From Brachyspira suanatina (lineage in GTDB: Bacteria > Spirochaetota > Brachyspiria > Brachyspirales > Brachyspiraceae): a DNA stretch of 64,000 bases. The notes under the pieces were generated by a model. It did no database searches. It saw nothing but the letters and a program-made list of their open reading frames with translations, and was not told where the DNA came from. The stretch covers positions 1,444,995 to 1,508,994 of the forward strand of contig NZ_CVLB01000001.1 of assembly GCF_001049755.1 (NCBI RefSeq), given 5' to 3'. Within the stretch, counting starts at the first letter, position 1. Each line of letters opens with the position of its first letter. Below are positions 10,846 through 51,311 of the stretch, one piece after another. Made by a program: the position numbers and the translations under genes.

Positions 10846-10873
10846 TTGATATAAAAAAAATATTATATATAAT
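10846..10873 (+). promoter_or_regulatory. Promoter of the B12 operon
   Basis: TTGATA (10846-10851), 16-nt spacer, TATAAT (10868-10873), immediately upstream of the cobalamin riboswitch, so that transcription would start at about 10880 and include the whole aptamer. The roughly 250 bases between here and the divergent lipoprotein gene at 10585 are very AT-rich and show no gene. Confidence 0.6.
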
Positions 10874-10877
10874 TTGC

Positions 10878-11018
10878 TGTCAAAGAATATGGGAATGAGG
10901 GTGAAAATCCTTCGCTGGCACGCAACCGTAAAGTTTAGTTTTTTATATAAATAAAATAACTAACGAAGTCGGATACCATTAAAATAGGCGAGTGCACTGA
11001 AAAATTCTTTAAGCACTC
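10878..11018 (+). ncRNA. Cobalamin (B12) riboswitch
   Basis: The conserved core is readable in order: GGGAATGAGGGTGAAAATCC, then GGCACGCAACCGTAAAG, then an AT-rich variable stem, then the B12-box-like AGTCGGATACC (10967-10977). This matches the adenosyl/methylcobalamin riboswitch consensus closely. After the aptamer comes a hairpin GAGTGC (10990-10995) / GCACTC (11013-11018), which may be the expression platform; it has no strong T run, so control could be on translation rather than termination. It directly precedes a lipoprotein-lipoprotein-lipoprotein-TonB-receptor operon, implying repression of that operon when B12 is plentiful. Confidence 0.9.
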
Positions 11019-11067
11019 ATTTATTAAATACTCAGTAATATTTAATTTAAATAAAGGAGCATCTATT

Positions 11068-11634
11068 ATGCAAAAACAAATCAAATTTTTTTTAACACTT
11101 TTAACGGTGTTAATTTTAGCCGTATCATGTGCTAAAAACAATCCAAATGACCCTAATAATAATAACGGATCTGGAATAATCACTACAGTATATTATGGCA
11201 GTAAATCTATTGTTGTTAATACTGCAGATCAAGACAAATTAAAAGAATTATGGATAGGATTAGTTAAGAATCAATTTATTTATTATGCAACAGATTATGC
11301 ATATAAATCAGGAAAGTTTGACTCTGAAGGAAATTATCATGATATTAGCAGTGATTATCAAAATCCTAAACCTGAAATTAGAACTAAATATATAAAAAAT
11401 ATCGCTTATCAATACAATGGAAAATTTTATCTTGCAGGCATATATTGGGATAATGAAAATCAAGGTATGCCTAATGCTTATCGTCTAATCGCTTTCGATG
11501 ATAAAGGTGCAGAATTAGCATGGTTTGGTGGCGGAAGCAATCCTAATAACATACCAAATGAAAATACTGTATGGACTAGATATAAAGATGGTTCTGGAAA
11601 AGATGCTATATGGGGATATATAGAAAAATTCTAA
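11068..11634 (+). CDS. Small lipoprotein, first gene after B12 riboswitch; candidate cobalamin-capture protein
   Basis: 188-residue lipoprotein with a clear signal peptide and lipobox cysteine at residue 21 (LILAVSCAKN), followed by an Asn/Pro-rich tether of about 15 residues. No family recognised. The folded part (about 40-188) contains TTVYYGSKSI, then LAGIYWDNENQ, YRLIAFDDKGAELAWFGGGS and a Trp/Tyr-rich end; the same domain recurs in the lipoprotein at 12365. AAAGGAG ribosome site. Control by the cobalamin riboswitch and co-direction with a TonB-dependent receptor suggest a role in B12 binding at the outer membrane; this is inference, not a recognised function. It could instead be an accessory or scavenger of another corrinoid-related compound. 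Confidence 0.85.
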   Translation: MQKQIKFFLTLLTVLILAVSCAKNNPNDPNNNNGSGIITTVYYGSKSIVVNTADQDKLKELWIGLVKNQFIYYATDYAYKSGKFDSEGNYHDISSDYQNPKPEIRTKYIKNIAYQYNGKFYLAGIYWDNENQGMPNAYRLIAFDDKGAELAWFGGGSNPNNIPNENTVWTRYKDGSGKDAIWGYIEKF

Positions 11635-11796
11635 TATATTAATTTCAATTTTTTCTATAAAAATAATTAGTATAAAATTTATAATATACTGCAATATTAA
11701 AATTTAGTATTTCATAAAATAGTATAGCATTTGAAATAGTAAGTACACTAACATTCACATTTATTAAAATTCATAAAAAATAAAGGAGCATTTATT

Positions 11797-12333
11797 ATGC
11801 AAAAACAAATTAAAATTTTTTTAACACTTTTAACAGTGATAACTTTAGCAATATCATGTGCTGGAAACAATCCAAATAATCCGACAGCAGGAACATCTTT
11901 ATGGAAAAACAATATAAATTACAACTTATTAATCAAAGATTGGTATAATCCAAATTATCAAACAGAAATTTATAAAATAGAAGAAAGTGGAAACAATAAA
12001 ATAGACTTTAATGTACTTAATCCTCAGGGAGATATTAGCTACTCTATTTCTGTATCAGAAATAATTTGGAATAATGATAATACATCTGGTATTATGTACG
12101 GAATATATACAAAGATAGACGAATCTTTTCAAGCTGGGGCTCTTAATAAATGGTATGCTATATCATTTAAAAATTTAACTAAATCTTCTTTATCCATATC
12201 TCAAGCTTGGGTTCAAGATGGAACTCCTTCTGGTATTTTTTATACTGAAACTCTTGAAGAAGCAAAAACTAAATTTACAGAAGAAAATAAGGCATTTTCA
12301 GTTTATTCAGATTTAGTACCTAAAACAAAATAA
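11797..12333 (+). CDS. Small lipoprotein, second in B12 operon
   Basis: 178-residue lipoprotein, lipobox cysteine at residue 21 (ITLAISCAGN). Its signal peptide, its ribosome site (AAAGGAGCAT) and some 40 bases of leader are nearly the same as those of the gene at 11068, so its 5' part arose by duplication. The mature domain is different: no GIYWDN or AWFGGG motif, instead alternating beta-rich segments such as YSISVSEIIWNNDN and ISQAWVQDGTPSGIFY. No family recognised. It is 162 nt after the first gene, a gap that could hold a secondary promoter, and 31 nt before the third lipoprotein gene. Predicted surface or periplasmic, function unknown, linked to B12 only by position. Confidence 0.82.
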   Translation: MQKQIKIFLTLLTVITLAISCAGNNPNNPTAGTSLWKNNINYNLLIKDWYNPNYQTEIYKIEESGNNKIDFNVLNPQGDISYSISVSEIIWNNDNTSGIMYGIYTKIDESFQAGALNKWYAISFKNLTKSSLSISQAWVQDGTPSGIFYTETLEEAKTKFTEENKAFSVYSDLVPKTK

Positions 12334-12364
12334 ACAATAAATTAATAATCAAGGTATAATCATC

Positions 12365-12949
12365 ATGAAAAATAAAATCAAAATTTTAATAAACATATTT
12401 ATAATATTAATTATATCTATTTCATGTGCTCCTAAATCTGTAACTGATCCTAGACAAGAAACAATCAATGAAAATTCAAAAGTAAATGTATCAGCTGTAG
12501 AAATTGGAAATGGATATAATGGAACTATTTATTATGGTAACAAAGCTTATACAGGTGAAATAACTCAGTCAAAAATTGAAGAGATATGGAAAACTATGGT
12601 TAATAATAAAAATATATATGAAACATCATCATATAGTACAGTAACAGGACAATTCAAAGATGATGCTAATTATTATGAAGATAAATGGAATAATGGAACA
12701 AGCCCTAGAACTGTTTTTAAAAGATGTATGGTATGTACATATAATGGTAAAAATTATATAGCCGGAGTATATTGGGATAATAAAACAGGCATCGGAATGC
12801 AGATAAGATATAGACTTATAATAGTTGATGAAGAAGGAGCTGAACAAGCTTGGTATGGCGGCGGAAGCGATCAAAATACTATACCAAATGAAAAAACAAG
12901 CGATTGGGTAAAGTATTGGTGGCCTTTTGGTTATATAAAACTTCAATAA
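12365..12949 (+). CDS. Small lipoprotein, third in B12 operon, paralogue of the first
   Basis: 194-residue lipoprotein, lipobox cysteine at residue 21 (IISISCAPKS). The domain from about residue 55 is clearly homologous to that of the gene at 11068: GTIYYGNKAY, IAGVYWDNKTG, YRLIIVDEEGAEQAWYGGGS and a final aromatic strand line up in the same order. Signal peptides differ in sequence. Start ATG with AAGG upstream. Ends 23 nt before the TonB-dependent receptor gene, the tightest coupling in this operon. The conserved aromatic residues and GGGS loop are the best candidates for a ligand-binding face (inference). Confidence 0.83.
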   Translation: MKNKIKILINIFIILIISISCAPKSVTDPRQETINENSKVNVSAVEIGNGYNGTIYYGNKAYTGEITQSKIEEIWKTMVNNKNIYETSSYSTVTGQFKDDANYYEDKWNNGTSPRTVFKRCMVCTYNGKNYIAGVYWDNKTGIGMQIRYRLIIVDEEGAEQAWYGGGSDQNTIPNEKTSDWVKYWWPFGYIKLQ

Positions 12950-12972
12950 AATAAAATTAAAAGTGTATTCAT

Positions 12973-14919
12973 ATGAAAAAGTATATCATAGTATTATTTA
13001 TATTCACAAATTTATTATATTCACAAAGTTATTTGATAAGAGAATTAAAAGGCGGTATTTGGGTTACTTCTCAAGTGGAAATAACAAATGCATCTCAAAC
13101 TAATCAGACTAATAATATTTCTGATCCCAAAACTCCTATCAAAGCAAATAATCGTATAATAACATCTGAAGAAATAGACAGAATGGGATATAAAAATGCT
13201 CAGGAAGTATTAGCTAATCAGCCGGGATTCATTAACAAAGGCAATTATATGGGAAATGAAGTTGTTGATCCTGCTGGTGCAAATGGAGATAATATAAAAA
13301 TATATATTAATGGCATACTTATGAATACAGCTAAAGGAAATGCTGATGCCGGAGTTGATTTAAGAAGAATACCATCGAATTTGATAGAATCCATTGAAAT
13401 AATAGGCAATTCTATATATATAACAACTAAAAGTCCTGTTCAGGATATACTTTTAATATCATTATGTTATGGCGCTTATAATACAGTAAGACCATCTATA
13501 CTATTTTCAAAGAACATTGATGAACATCAGGTATTTACTTTTACTGCTGATTCTTATTATAGTGATGCAAATTATCATTATGATTTTATTAATTCTTCAG
13601 GAGACAGAGTACAAGGAAATTTTAGAGATAATAGACAATTTATAGTTAATTCATCTGCCAACTATAAATATACATTTGATAATAAAGATCATATAAATGT
13701 ATTTGCTAATATATCTTATTCAAGCTCTGCTGCCCAATATCAAATACCGCCTATAAATAAAACTGATTCTTGGTTTACTTTTACTACTCTAGCTTCTTCA
13801 ATATCATATAATGGATTTTCAGATATTTTAAATTATAATGTTACTTTATCATATTTATTTGATTCATTTGTAGACAGACCTTATTTTCAGAATGGTAAAT
13901 TTGTATCAGATTATAAATCGCATGCTATAGCTTTAAATACAACTTTAGAAAGAATGGACGAATTTTTACCAAACACTATTACAATGTATAATAAATTAAC
14001 CCCTGAATACAGATATGATATTTTAACAGAAGATACAAATGCTATAGAAACTAATTTTTATTATTATCCTCAAAGACATTCTATTTCAATAAAATATGAT
14101 ATGCAATTATCTTTCGGATATTGGGATAATAATACACCTATATTTACATTGCTTCCTAGCATAAAGTATGAATATCAAAATGAAATATTTACTAATCAAA
14201 AAAATAATAATTATTTAGCATACAATGTAGGATTTAATTTAAATTTTTATAAAGGCTACTCATTGTATTTTGGCTATATGAGTGATTATACCTCACCTAC
14301 TTTTAATGATCTTTATTACGGCACTTTCAGTAATCCTAAATTATTGCCTGAAAGCTATAATCAACTGCTCACTAAATTAACATTAGAACCTATAACAAAT
14401 TTAAAAATAGAAGCCTCTTATGCTTATACAACATATACAAATAAAATAATTTGGCTGTATGCAGTTCCTGAAAATGTAGATACAGCAACTTCACATATAT
14501 TTACTTCAAGTATAGGATATGATATACCATTTGCTCAGTATCATAAGATAAAAACAAAAATAGGTTATTCTTATCAGCTTGCCTATATGGGAGAAAATCA
14601 GCTCCCTAAAATAGGTTTGCCGGAACATGTTGTTACAGCATTACTCGGTTATGATTTTATACCTAAAAATAAAGTATTAAGTTCATTATCTTTAAATATT
14701 TACTATACCTACTCTGCTCCAAGACCTTTAACAGATTATAAACCAATAAAATATTCTGAAGTATTTCATGATTTTGATATATCATTCTACTCTATATGGT
14801 TTAATCATTTGATATTCTCTATGCATTTTAAAAATATTTTTAATAAAACTCCTATACTTTCTACATACTCTGTTGCCAAACCTTTTACTTGGGAATTTGA
14901 AATAGGATATAATTTTTAA
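12973..14919 (+). CDS. TonB-dependent outer-membrane receptor, likely cobalamin (BtuB-like)
   Basis: Outer-membrane beta-barrel receptor, 648 aa. Signal peptide MKKYIIVLFIFTNLLYSQ, then a plug domain at about 60-152 with RIITSEEIDRMGYKNAQEVL, a GDNIKIYINGILMN strand and IPSNLIESIEIIGNSIYI, the standard TonB-plug pattern. The rest is a run of amphipathic beta strands ending in EIGYNF with C-terminal phenylalanine, as expected for barrel assembly. It is shorter than most siderophore receptors and close to BtuB in size. The upstream cobalamin riboswitch is the main reason for proposing B12 as substrate. No clear TonB box is seen between residues 19 and 60. TonB/ExbBD and an inner-membrane BtuCDF system are not in the window. 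Confidence 0.88.
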   Translation: MKKYIIVLFIFTNLLYSQSYLIRELKGGIWVTSQVEITNASQTNQTNNISDPKTPIKANNRIITSEEIDRMGYKNAQEVLANQPGFINKGNYMGNEVVDPAGANGDNIKIYINGILMNTAKGNADAGVDLRRIPSNLIESIEIIGNSIYITTKSPVQDILLISLCYGAYNTVRPSILFSKNIDEHQVFTFTADSYYSDANYHYDFINSSGDRVQGNFRDNRQFIVNSSANYKYTFDNKDHINVFANISYSSSAAQYQIPPINKTDSWFTFTTLASSISYNGFSDILNYNVTLSYLFDSFVDRPYFQNGKFVSDYKSHAIALNTTLERMDEFLPNTITMYNKLTPEYRYDILTEDTNAIETNFYYYPQRHSISIKYDMQLSFGYWDNNTPIFTLLPSIKYEYQNEIFTNQKNNNYLAYNVGFNLNFYKGYSLYFGYMSDYTSPTFNDLYYGTFSNPKLLPESYNQLLTKLTLEPITNLKIEASYAYTTYTNKIIWLYAVPENVDTATSHIFTSSIGYDIPFAQYHKIKTKIGYSYQLAYMGENQLPKIGLPEHVVTALLGYDFIPKNKVLSSLSLNIYYTYSAPRPLTDYKPIKYSEVFHDFDISFYSIWFNHLIFSMHFKNIFNKTPILSTYSVAKPFTWEFEIGYNF

Positions 14920-14989: not shown

Positions 14990-16759
14990 ATGTTAAAAGA
15001 TATATCTAATTATATAAAATACAGAATTGACAGAATGCTTAATAAAGGGCTTTTCTATCAATTAATGCTTTTAGTATTTGCAATAATAATTCTCCTTTTA
15101 ATAGTATCAATATTTATCATAGTATTTTTTCAGTATCCTCCTAAAGATGCATTTTGGGATAGCTTGATGCAGTTTATAGATACGGGAAATATATCTTCTG
15201 TAGAAGGCAATACTGGTGTAGTAATAACTTTTTTAATGGTAACTTTTGTAGGCGTATGCGGCTGGGGTTCTCTTATAGCTATGATCAATAAAGCTTTGCA
15301 AGATAGAATAAATAATCTAAGCAAAGGTAATGCATTTATAATGGAAAAAAATCATGCTATTATTTTAGGGTACGGAGAAGAAGCTCTCACTATAGTAGAA
15401 GAATTTATAAAAGCAAAAGTTAAAACCATTGTAATACTATCTGAACATAATGTTGATGTTATAAGGAAAAGAGTTTCATTTATAAAAGGATATAAAAAAA
15501 CTAATATAATAATAAGAGAAGGAACTACAAGCAGAATAGAAAATATAAAATTATTAAATATTTCTAAATCATCAAGCATATCAATAATAAATAATGATGA
15601 TACAGAATCTCTGAATATACTTTTAGCTTTGAAAAAAATTATAGAAGAAATAGAAGAAGATAAAATTGATAACAAAATTAATATATGCGTATTGGTTCAT
15701 GAAGAAGATACTATTGAGATAATAAAATCCATTGAAAATAAAAACTTTGTAATTCATGTAATTTATAAATATGAAATTCTTTATAAACTTATAGCACAAA
15801 GTATAATTTATACAGGCTTAAGCAATGTTTATGAGGATTTATTTTCTAATGATGGTAATATATTTTATATAGAAAATGATCATGATTTTGATAATTGGAA
15901 ATTTGAAGATGCTGCTTCAAAATATTTTGACAAGGGAATGATATTGCTTGGAATAACAAAAGAAGATAGAAGTCAGATTTTAATACCTAATTATGATTAT
16001 GTAATAAAAAAAGAAAATAGACTAATAGTATTATCAAAAAATAATTACGATAACCCTATTAAAGAATATCCTGATATAAAACCAAATATTATTAAATATA
16101 AAAATAACATTCTATTAATATGTGAAGAAAAAAGATACACTGAAATAATAAAAGAAATTTCAGAATATATAGAAAATAATAATATAGTTATGCTAAGTTA
16201 TGATTTAATAAAATCTCAAAAAAATAAATATAAGTTTATGTTGGAAAAATTAAATAAAGAAAATACAACAAAAATAGTATTAATATCTGAAGATAATATC
16301 ACAGACATAAAAAGCATTAATATACTTTTGATTATAAGAGAAATAATAAAAAAAGAAAAATTAAATATAGCAATATTATCATTATTAAATTCTATACAAA
16401 AAAGGAATTTGATATATTCAGATGATGTAAGAGACTTTATAGTGAGCGGTAAACTTATAGGTATGCTTATGGCACAGGCTTCTATAAGTTCAAATATATT
16501 ATATATTTTCTACGGACTTCTAAGCAGAAATGGAAAAGATATTATAATGTCTCCATATTCTGATTATTTTAATGAATCTAGAAGTTTTAAAGATGTATAC
16601 TTTAATTTACTAAAGAAAAAAATAATTTTAATAGGCATCAAAAGATACAATGATATTATTTTAAATCCTAATTCTGAATGTATGCTTGATAATAAGGATG
16701 AAATTGTAATTATAACTAATTATGTATTAGAAGAAGAAAATGAAGAGTTAATTTTTTAA
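14990..16759 (+). CDS. CASTOR/POLLUX (DMI1)-like ion channel with RCK-type domains
   Basis: Predicted inner-membrane ion channel of 589 aa. Two membrane helices near residues 22-45 and 75-100 flank a pore-like region (FWDSLMQFIDTGNISSVEGN). The long cytoplasmic part has a Rossmann-like RCK/TrkA-N start, HAIILGYGEEALTIVEEFI at about residue 121, and a second related half later (NNILLICEEKRYTEII). The sequence KGNAFIMEKNHAIILGYGE resembles the CASTOR/POLLUX family of plants and bacteria rather than KtrA/TrkA. Ion selectivity (K+ or Ca2+) cannot be told. It has its own promoter and stands alone between the B12 operon and a convergent ankyrin gene. Confidence 0.8.
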   Translation: MLKDISNYIKYRIDRMLNKGLFYQLMLLVFAIIILLLIVSIFIIVFFQYPPKDAFWDSLMQFIDTGNISSVEGNTGVVITFLMVTFVGVCGWGSLIAMINKALQDRINNLSKGNAFIMEKNHAIILGYGEEALTIVEEFIKAKVKTIVILSEHNVDVIRKRVSFIKGYKKTNIIIREGTTSRIENIKLLNISKSSSISIINNDDTESLNILLALKKIIEEIEEDKIDNKINICVLVHEEDTIEIIKSIENKNFVIHVIYKYEILYKLIAQSIIYTGLSNVYEDLFSNDGNIFYIENDHDFDNWKFEDAASKYFDKGMILLGITKEDRSQILIPNYDYVIKKENRLIVLSKNNYDNPIKEYPDIKPNIIKYKNNILLICEEKRYTEIIKEISEYIENNNIVMLSYDLIKSQKNKYKFMLEKLNKENTTKIVLISEDNITDIKSINILLIIREIIKKEKLNIAILSLLNSIQKRNLIYSDDVRDFIVSGKLIGMLMAQASISSNILYIFYGLLSRNGKDIIMSPYSDYFNESRSFKDVYFNLLKKKIILIGIKRYNDIILNPNSECMLDNKDEIVIITNYVLEEENEELIF

Positions 16760-51222: not shown

Positions 51223-51311
51223 CGGAAGAGGCAGGAGTTGAACCTGCCGACGTTGTTATAACGTCCAACGCTTTTGAAGAGCGCGGAGCCCACCGGGACT
51301 CATCTGCCTCC
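51223..51311 (-). tRNA. selC: tRNA-Sec (anticodon TCA), acceptor stem one base short
   Basis: 89 nt on the minus strand. Selenocysteine-tRNA hallmarks: 6-bp D stem GAGTCC/GGGCTC closed by the tetraloop CGGT, anticodon loop CTTCAAA (anticodon TCA), long variable arm GACGTT/AACGTC, T loop TTCAACT. The 5' acceptor strand GGAGGCAG would pair perfectly (with one G-U) with CTGCTTCC, but the sequence has CTCTTCC, i.e. one G missing, leaving C6 bulged. Discriminator G at 51223; CCA not encoded. Directly upstream of selA. Confidence 0.9.

Follow-up and report, generated by a model that had tools for sequence, protein, structure and literature searches.

Organization of the locus in Brachyspira suanatina

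We examined a 64,000-nucleotide stretch of the Brachyspira suanatina genome (the window; G000:C1:1444995-1508994), whose own coordinates are used below, and within it a locus at 10846-14919 that combines a riboswitch-like leader, three lipoprotein genes and a gene for a TonB-dependent receptor. An earlier note, made from the DNA letters, had read this locus as a candidate capture system for vitamin B12 (cobalamin), and the promoter boxes, riboswitch core boxes, three lipoprotein genes and receptor that it listed were all found where it had placed them, on one strand. The lipoprotein genes (11068-11634, 11797-12333 and 12365-12949) precede the receptor gene (12973-14919) with intergenic spacings of 162, 31 and 23 bases, all on the plus strand. 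All three open reading frames begin with a signal peptide bearing a lipobox, with the cysteine at residue 21, and the mature proteins have 158-174 amino acids. The gap ahead of lipoprotein 2 (11635-11796, plus strand) matches lipoprotein 1 in its Shine-Dalgarno and start region, lacks an intact aptamer in the alignment, and looks like a decayed copy of the leader. The same locus occurs in the named relatives B. pilosicoli, B. hampsonii, B. innocens, B. alvinipulli and B. catarrhinii.

A divergent riboswitch precedes the lipoprotein genes

The leader at 10855-10998 (plus strand) matches the Rfam cobalamin riboswitch model, RF00174, with 23.4 bits (E 5.8e-4 in a search of 521 bases and 8.5e-4 over the whole genome). 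The cobalamin riboswitch predicted in the earlier note thus has a significant covariance-model match, though one below the curated gathering score of 31.5, which is a search threshold and not a biological trait. Because of this difference, a scan at the default Rfam threshold does not detect the window riboswitch, and we call the element divergent and cobalamin-riboswitch-like. The aptamer has a shortened periphery and contains the core boxes GGTGAAAATCC (10900-10910), GCACGCAACCGTAA (10918-10931) and AGTCGGATACC (10967-10977), all on the plus strand. A promoter-like site, TTGATA-16-TATAAT (10846-10873, plus strand), was identified by consensus match only (11 of 12 positions), and such matches are common in this AT-rich DNA.

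To judge the sub-threshold score, we used relatives and covariation. RF00174 matches recur at this locus across the genus, and some match is present in 25 of 26 Brachyspira genomes. Among 26 aligned copies from the arrays described below, the columns of the aptamer core are nearly invariant, and the stems show 35 cells changed on both sides, compared with a mean of 9.5 in shuffled alignments; none of 500 shuffles, which ignore the relatedness of the copies, reached this value, and it also exceeds all slid controls. Measures counting pairs and types, which are the more robust ones according to the tool, were likewise not reached in any of the 500 shuffles. Since the matches are genus-wide, the core is nearly invariant and the stems covary, we regard the match as real. 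A partner for an L5-L13 kissing loop was also sought by eye; the candidate did not covary, and no claim is made for it.

Downstream of the aptamer, GAGTGC (10990-10995) is complementary to GCACTC (11013-11018), here and in most relatives, forming a potential expression-platform helix (10990-11018, plus strand). An overlapping segment, CTCCTTTATT, can pair with the Shine-Dalgarno sequence AATAAAGGAG, and because the two helices overlap, only one can form at a time. Of 28 copies, 21 have both helices, overlapping each other; the window copy is not counted here, owing to one mismatch in 10 between its anti-Shine-Dalgarno CTCATTTATT (11016-11025) and AATAAAGGAG (11050-11059; whole element 11016-11059, plus strand). 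An intrinsic terminator was looked for and not found, which fits translational control, and we infer that the element acts as a translational switch. At low cellular B12, the GAGTGC/GCACTC helix would sequester the anti-Shine-Dalgarno and translation would be on; binding of B12 to the aptamer would disrupt that helix, leaving the anti-Shine-Dalgarno to mask the ribosome site.

The lipoproteins form two families

The earlier note had counted three unrecognised lipoproteins. The three genes stand, but they belong to two families and not three: lipoproteins 1 and 3 are homologous (42% identical) and constitute family A, whereas the likeness of lipoprotein 1 to lipoprotein 2 is confined to the signal-peptide end (23 of 29 residues), and lipoprotein 2 represents family B. 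Homology between A and B was not detected by hhalign (probability 3.8). When lipoproteins 1 and 2 were searched as single sequences, numerous weak matches appeared genome-wide, and many covered the signal peptide. Profiles of the mature domains eliminated these matches and assign the array lipoproteins at the retrieved loci to A or B. A contig search with lipoprotein 1 as a single protein returned no match, and the useful Brachyspira loci came from alignment of the receptor. One lipoprotein (L123:4672-5601; L123/L156) is a natural fusion of B and A domains.

As the earlier note had anticipated in recognising no family, neither A nor B had a match in Pfam or a meaningful match in a sequence search of the PDB. 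NCBIfam matches of family A to the MAG5150 and Borrelia lipoprotein models were N-terminal and far below cut-off, and were rejected. The family B model is a barrel with a predicted local distance difference test score (pLDDT) of 87 and a predicted template modelling score of 0.81. Its top row in structural alignment is the Treponema pallidum lipoprotein Tp0751 (5jk2; Z 10.5, root-mean-square deviation (rmsd) 3.2 over 102 residues), followed by Bacteroides lipocalin-like proteins at Z 9.2-9.5 (4gzv: Z 9.5, rmsd 2.7 over 103 residues), with the remaining rows at or below 7.5. Because these top rows stand above the background of the tool, a lipocalin-like barrel is the likely fold of family B. 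For family A (pLDDT 85), the best alignment reached Z 5.4 with an rmsd of 4.5 over 107 residues. With Foldseek, neither model had a match at E <= 0.001 (best for family B, E 0.058). No beta-jelly-roll was among the fold-comparison rows for A or B, rows that cannot exclude such a fold.

The receptor and the B12 pathway in Brachyspira

The receptor (12973-14919, plus strand) has 648 amino acids, with Plug (1.2e-11) and TonB barrel (5.9e-7) domains in Pfam, and is thus the BtuB-sized protein that the earlier note had described after the lipoproteins. BtuB models were its only NCBIfam matches, at 37.2 bits for PRK10641 (cut-off 836) and 33.3 bits for TIGR01779 (cut-off 599.7); as these scores lie below the equivalog cut-offs, we designate it only as BtuB-like. 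One full-length copy is present in 24 of 26 genomes of the genus, at 74-99% identity. Elsewhere in the B. suanatina genome, away from the window operon, genes for ExbB, BtuF-, BtuC- and BtuD-type proteins and a cobalamin adenosyltransferase lie in a row, and the genome also encodes a MetH-like protein with a B12-binding domain. In relatives, btu transport genes adjoin an operon for a B12-dependent dehydratase behind a stronger riboswitch.

Several further observations concern B12 riboswitches and enzymes in the genus. Above-cut-off cobalamin riboswitches precede operons of the B12-dependent dehydratase (pdu-like) or other microcompartment type, near btuFCD-type genes, in many Brachyspira (L143-L148); a B12 switch ahead of B12-using enzymes is unusual. 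A second weak RF00174 match in B. suanatina (21.6 bits; G000:C3:302526-302676; L002, L142) lies between symporter-like and radical-SAM-like genes, antisense to both, and similar weak matches occur in this setting in relatives (L149, L150, L151 and L154). In another genome, a metE-like gene, encoding a B12-independent methionine synthase, follows a weak match to the cobalamin riboswitch (L152; G001:C1:1157331). EutA, of the B12-dependent ethanolamine utilization pathway, is encoded directly 3' of the receptor in G022 (L125:9-1445), a position taken in several relatives by the gene for an iron-containing alcohol dehydrogenase. In the window itself, a Castor/Pollux-type ion channel gene (14990-16759) lies directly 3' of the receptor, with no sign of membership in a B12 system, and a selenocysteine tRNA is encoded at 51224-51311 on the minus strand.

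Lipoprotein arrays across the genus

In receptor-bearing Brachyspira genomes, the array is ordered as one or more riboswitches, then zero to at least six lipoproteins, then one receptor, and it occupies at least three chromosomal settings. Two riboswitches lie within one array at L119, L120, L125, L132 and L137. At L135, the receptor gene comes straight after the riboswitch, with no lipoprotein gene intervening, and is followed by a periplasmic binding protein gene. Genome G005 has two arrays, one next to the receptor (L140) and one away from it (L141).

Relatives of lipoprotein 1 are mostly 38-50% identical across the genus, far less conserved than the receptor. This contrast bears on which way the lipoproteins face. 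If they faced the periplasm, they could relay corrinoid from the receptor to BtuF or stabilize the receptor plug, and would have no part in external capture. The pairing with a receptor and btuF-type genes fits either side of the membrane; the faster divergence and the variable number of the lipoproteins are better explained by surface exposure, and the handover from BtuB to BtuF of the E. coli type requires no extra lipoprotein. We therefore consider a periplasmic role unlikely and retain capture or handover of corrinoids at the receptor as the favored function.

The leaders themselves point to a history of copying. For genes that stand first behind a riboswitch, the signal peptides of A and B members are 62% identical (median) and their mature domains 24%, whereas signal peptides of first and non-first genes within one family are 39% identical. 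At L132, an A gene and a B gene behind two riboswitches carry identical signal peptides, and in the window lipoprotein 2 shares the start region of lipoprotein 1 with no intact aptamer before it. This pattern suggests that a leader consisting of riboswitch and signal peptide was copied repeatedly while the mature domain was exchanged (cassette shuffling), a process that the pattern does not in itself demonstrate. By such copying before either mature domain, the Brachyspira arrays would grow and diverge.

Family B accompanies cobalamin riboswitches and receptors in other spirochaetes

We searched the family profiles against 393 genomes of the phylum Spirochaetota. Family A was found in 23 genomes, all of Brachyspira and all in array loci; its only match outside the genus (G180, E 6e-4) was a long frame without lipoprotein character and was rejected. 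The family B profile, built from Brachyspira mature domains only and blind to gene context, matched 46 of the 393 genomes in 14 genera (13 besides Brachyspira). The loci of all 29 matching genomes outside Brachyspira were examined, as 30 stretches of about 440 kilobases (kb) in all; they are not fully independent, because some of the genomes are close relatives. One match counted among the 30 (G083, E 0.0025) is treated as false, being missed by a wider profile and having no B12 context.

A cobalamin-family riboswitch above cut-off adjoins the family B gene in 20 of the 30 stretches (at L204, a receptor gene intervenes), and L196, L195 and L192 have matches at or just under cut-off. No other above-cut-off riboswitch of this family was found in the fetched stretches. 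A receptor-sized gene lies on the same strand within 2 kb of the family B gene in 25 stretches; a Plug domain was found by Pfam in all 10 neighboring receptors first tested, one just below cut-off. Genes of the BtuF/BtuC/BtuD type follow directly downstream at L203 (by Pfam) and at L211, L212 and L214 (read from sequence). As the surrounding neighborhoods otherwise differ, the linkage of family B to riboswitch and receptor is itself the conserved feature. On the question of whether homologues elsewhere keep this company, then, the answer is that family A occurs only in arrays and family B mostly next to a cobalamin riboswitch and a TonB receptor, throughout the phylum. At L190 (7314-9824), the family B domain forms the N-terminus of an 836-amino-acid lipoprotein next to a receptor gene.

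This distribution also weighs on two other explanations. The lipoproteins might be surface antigens or adhesins with no role in transport, B12 serving merely as a cue of the host niche; their rapid divergence, variable copy number and shared leaders recall variable surface-protein families. One would not expect a passenger antigen to stay beside a cobalamin riboswitch and a receptor in other genera with unrelated neighborhoods, as family B does, and we regard this explanation as quite improbable. Alternatively, receptor and lipoproteins might import something other than a corrinoid, such as a cobalt chelate, haem or a siderophore, under B12 control. The receptors do score well below the B12-receptor cut-offs, and models of haem and siderophore receptors match them too. 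Of 18 neighboring receptors outside Brachyspira, 16 have TIGR01779 as their top NCBIfam match (one of them, at L195, tied), always below its equivalog cut-off, and B12-receptor models are the sole NCBIfam matches of the window receptor; BtuF/BtuC-type genes are among the neighbors, and EutA adjoins the receptor in G022. A non-corrinoid substrate thus seems very improbable indeed, and corrinoid uptake remains the explanation we adopt.

Comparison with known B12 lipoproteins

The closest parallels are the accessory lipoproteins of Bacteroides. BtuG, a seven-bladed beta-propeller reported only in Bacteroidetes (PMC6143338), forms a complex with BtuB (PMC10404256). Its gene likewise encodes a lipoprotein beside btuB under a B12 riboswitch, with a proposed role in capture and handover; the spirochaete proteins differ in being small, with predicted small beta structures (a barrel in family B) and no relevant PDB match. 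BtuJ/DUF4465 proteins, which bind B12 and have an augmented beta-jelly-roll fold (PMC12751083, PMC13398666), are also riboswitch-controlled lipoproteins with paralogous copies per genome, and some DUF4465 members are listed from Spirochaetota; nevertheless, the Pfam DUF4465 profile matched none of 27 and 21 members of the two families. BtuH, with Ig-like domains and a C-terminal ligand domain (PMC8941943), and BtuK (PMC8941943, PMC12751083) are accessory B12 lipoproteins of btuB operons as well, and the PDB sequence search gave no relevant match between them and A or B. Tp0751 and 4gzv are the nearest solved folds to family B and weakly resemble family A, but at 5-8% identity the likeness is one of predicted fold and not, as far as shown, of function. 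The window receptor has the Plug and barrel architecture of BtuB (TIGR01779, PRK10641) without being an equivalog. By analogy, we infer that families A and B work like the Bacteroides B12 lipoproteins, although our searches placed them in none of those families.

A candidate corrinoid uptake operon

Taken together, the sequence evidence supports the earlier reading of the locus as a B12 capture system, and neither of the computational outcomes that the earlier note had named as refuting it was observed. We consider it probable that the locus is a B12-repressed operon for corrinoid uptake across the outer membrane, in which the lipoproteins capture corrinoids or hand them to the BtuB-like receptor. 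Family B probably constitutes a previously undescribed family of accessory proteins for B12 uptake; in this reading it is the older component, common to spirochaetes, and family A is an addition in Brachyspira. The lipoproteins would be anchored in the outer membrane, where the pocket of a beta-barrel would bind corrinoids, or carriers of corrinoids, for transfer to the receptor, and the BtuF-, BtuC- and BtuD-type proteins and adenosyltransferase encoded elsewhere behind the ExbB gene would complete import.

Several findings weigh against this interpretation. The window aptamer scores under the curated Rfam cut-off (23.4 against 31.5), its anti-Shine-Dalgarno has a mismatch, and the receptor lies far under the BtuB equivalog cut-offs. 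The TonB C-terminal domain (PF03544) was not found in the genome, despite the TonB-dependent receptor and the ExbB gene. Genomes such as G003 retain the receptor without any lipoprotein, so that the lipoproteins are not essential for it. Among the family B loci outside the genus, L188, L190, L213 and L217 have no riboswitch and L216 is truncated; L213 and L218 have no receptor. Finally, the ligands of lipocalin-like folds are many, and some of these folds have no ligand at all.

A broader proposal, which we put forward tentatively and doubt slightly more than we believe, is that family B comprises lipoproteins that bind B12 across the phylum and have a lipocalin-like barrel, a structural answer to B12 capture independent of those in Bacteroides, and that Brachyspira has diversified its lipoproteins by swapping mature domains behind a copied cassette of riboswitch and signal peptide. 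No paper on these lipoprotein families was found among the open-licence literature, and lipoprotein-assisted B12 capture has so far been worked out in Bacteroidota. If the interpretation is true, an unrelated family tied to spirochaete B12 receptors would mean that this capture strategy arose more than once; it would also give a function to many hypothetical spirochaete lipoproteins and provide small, easily purified proteins for binding tests.

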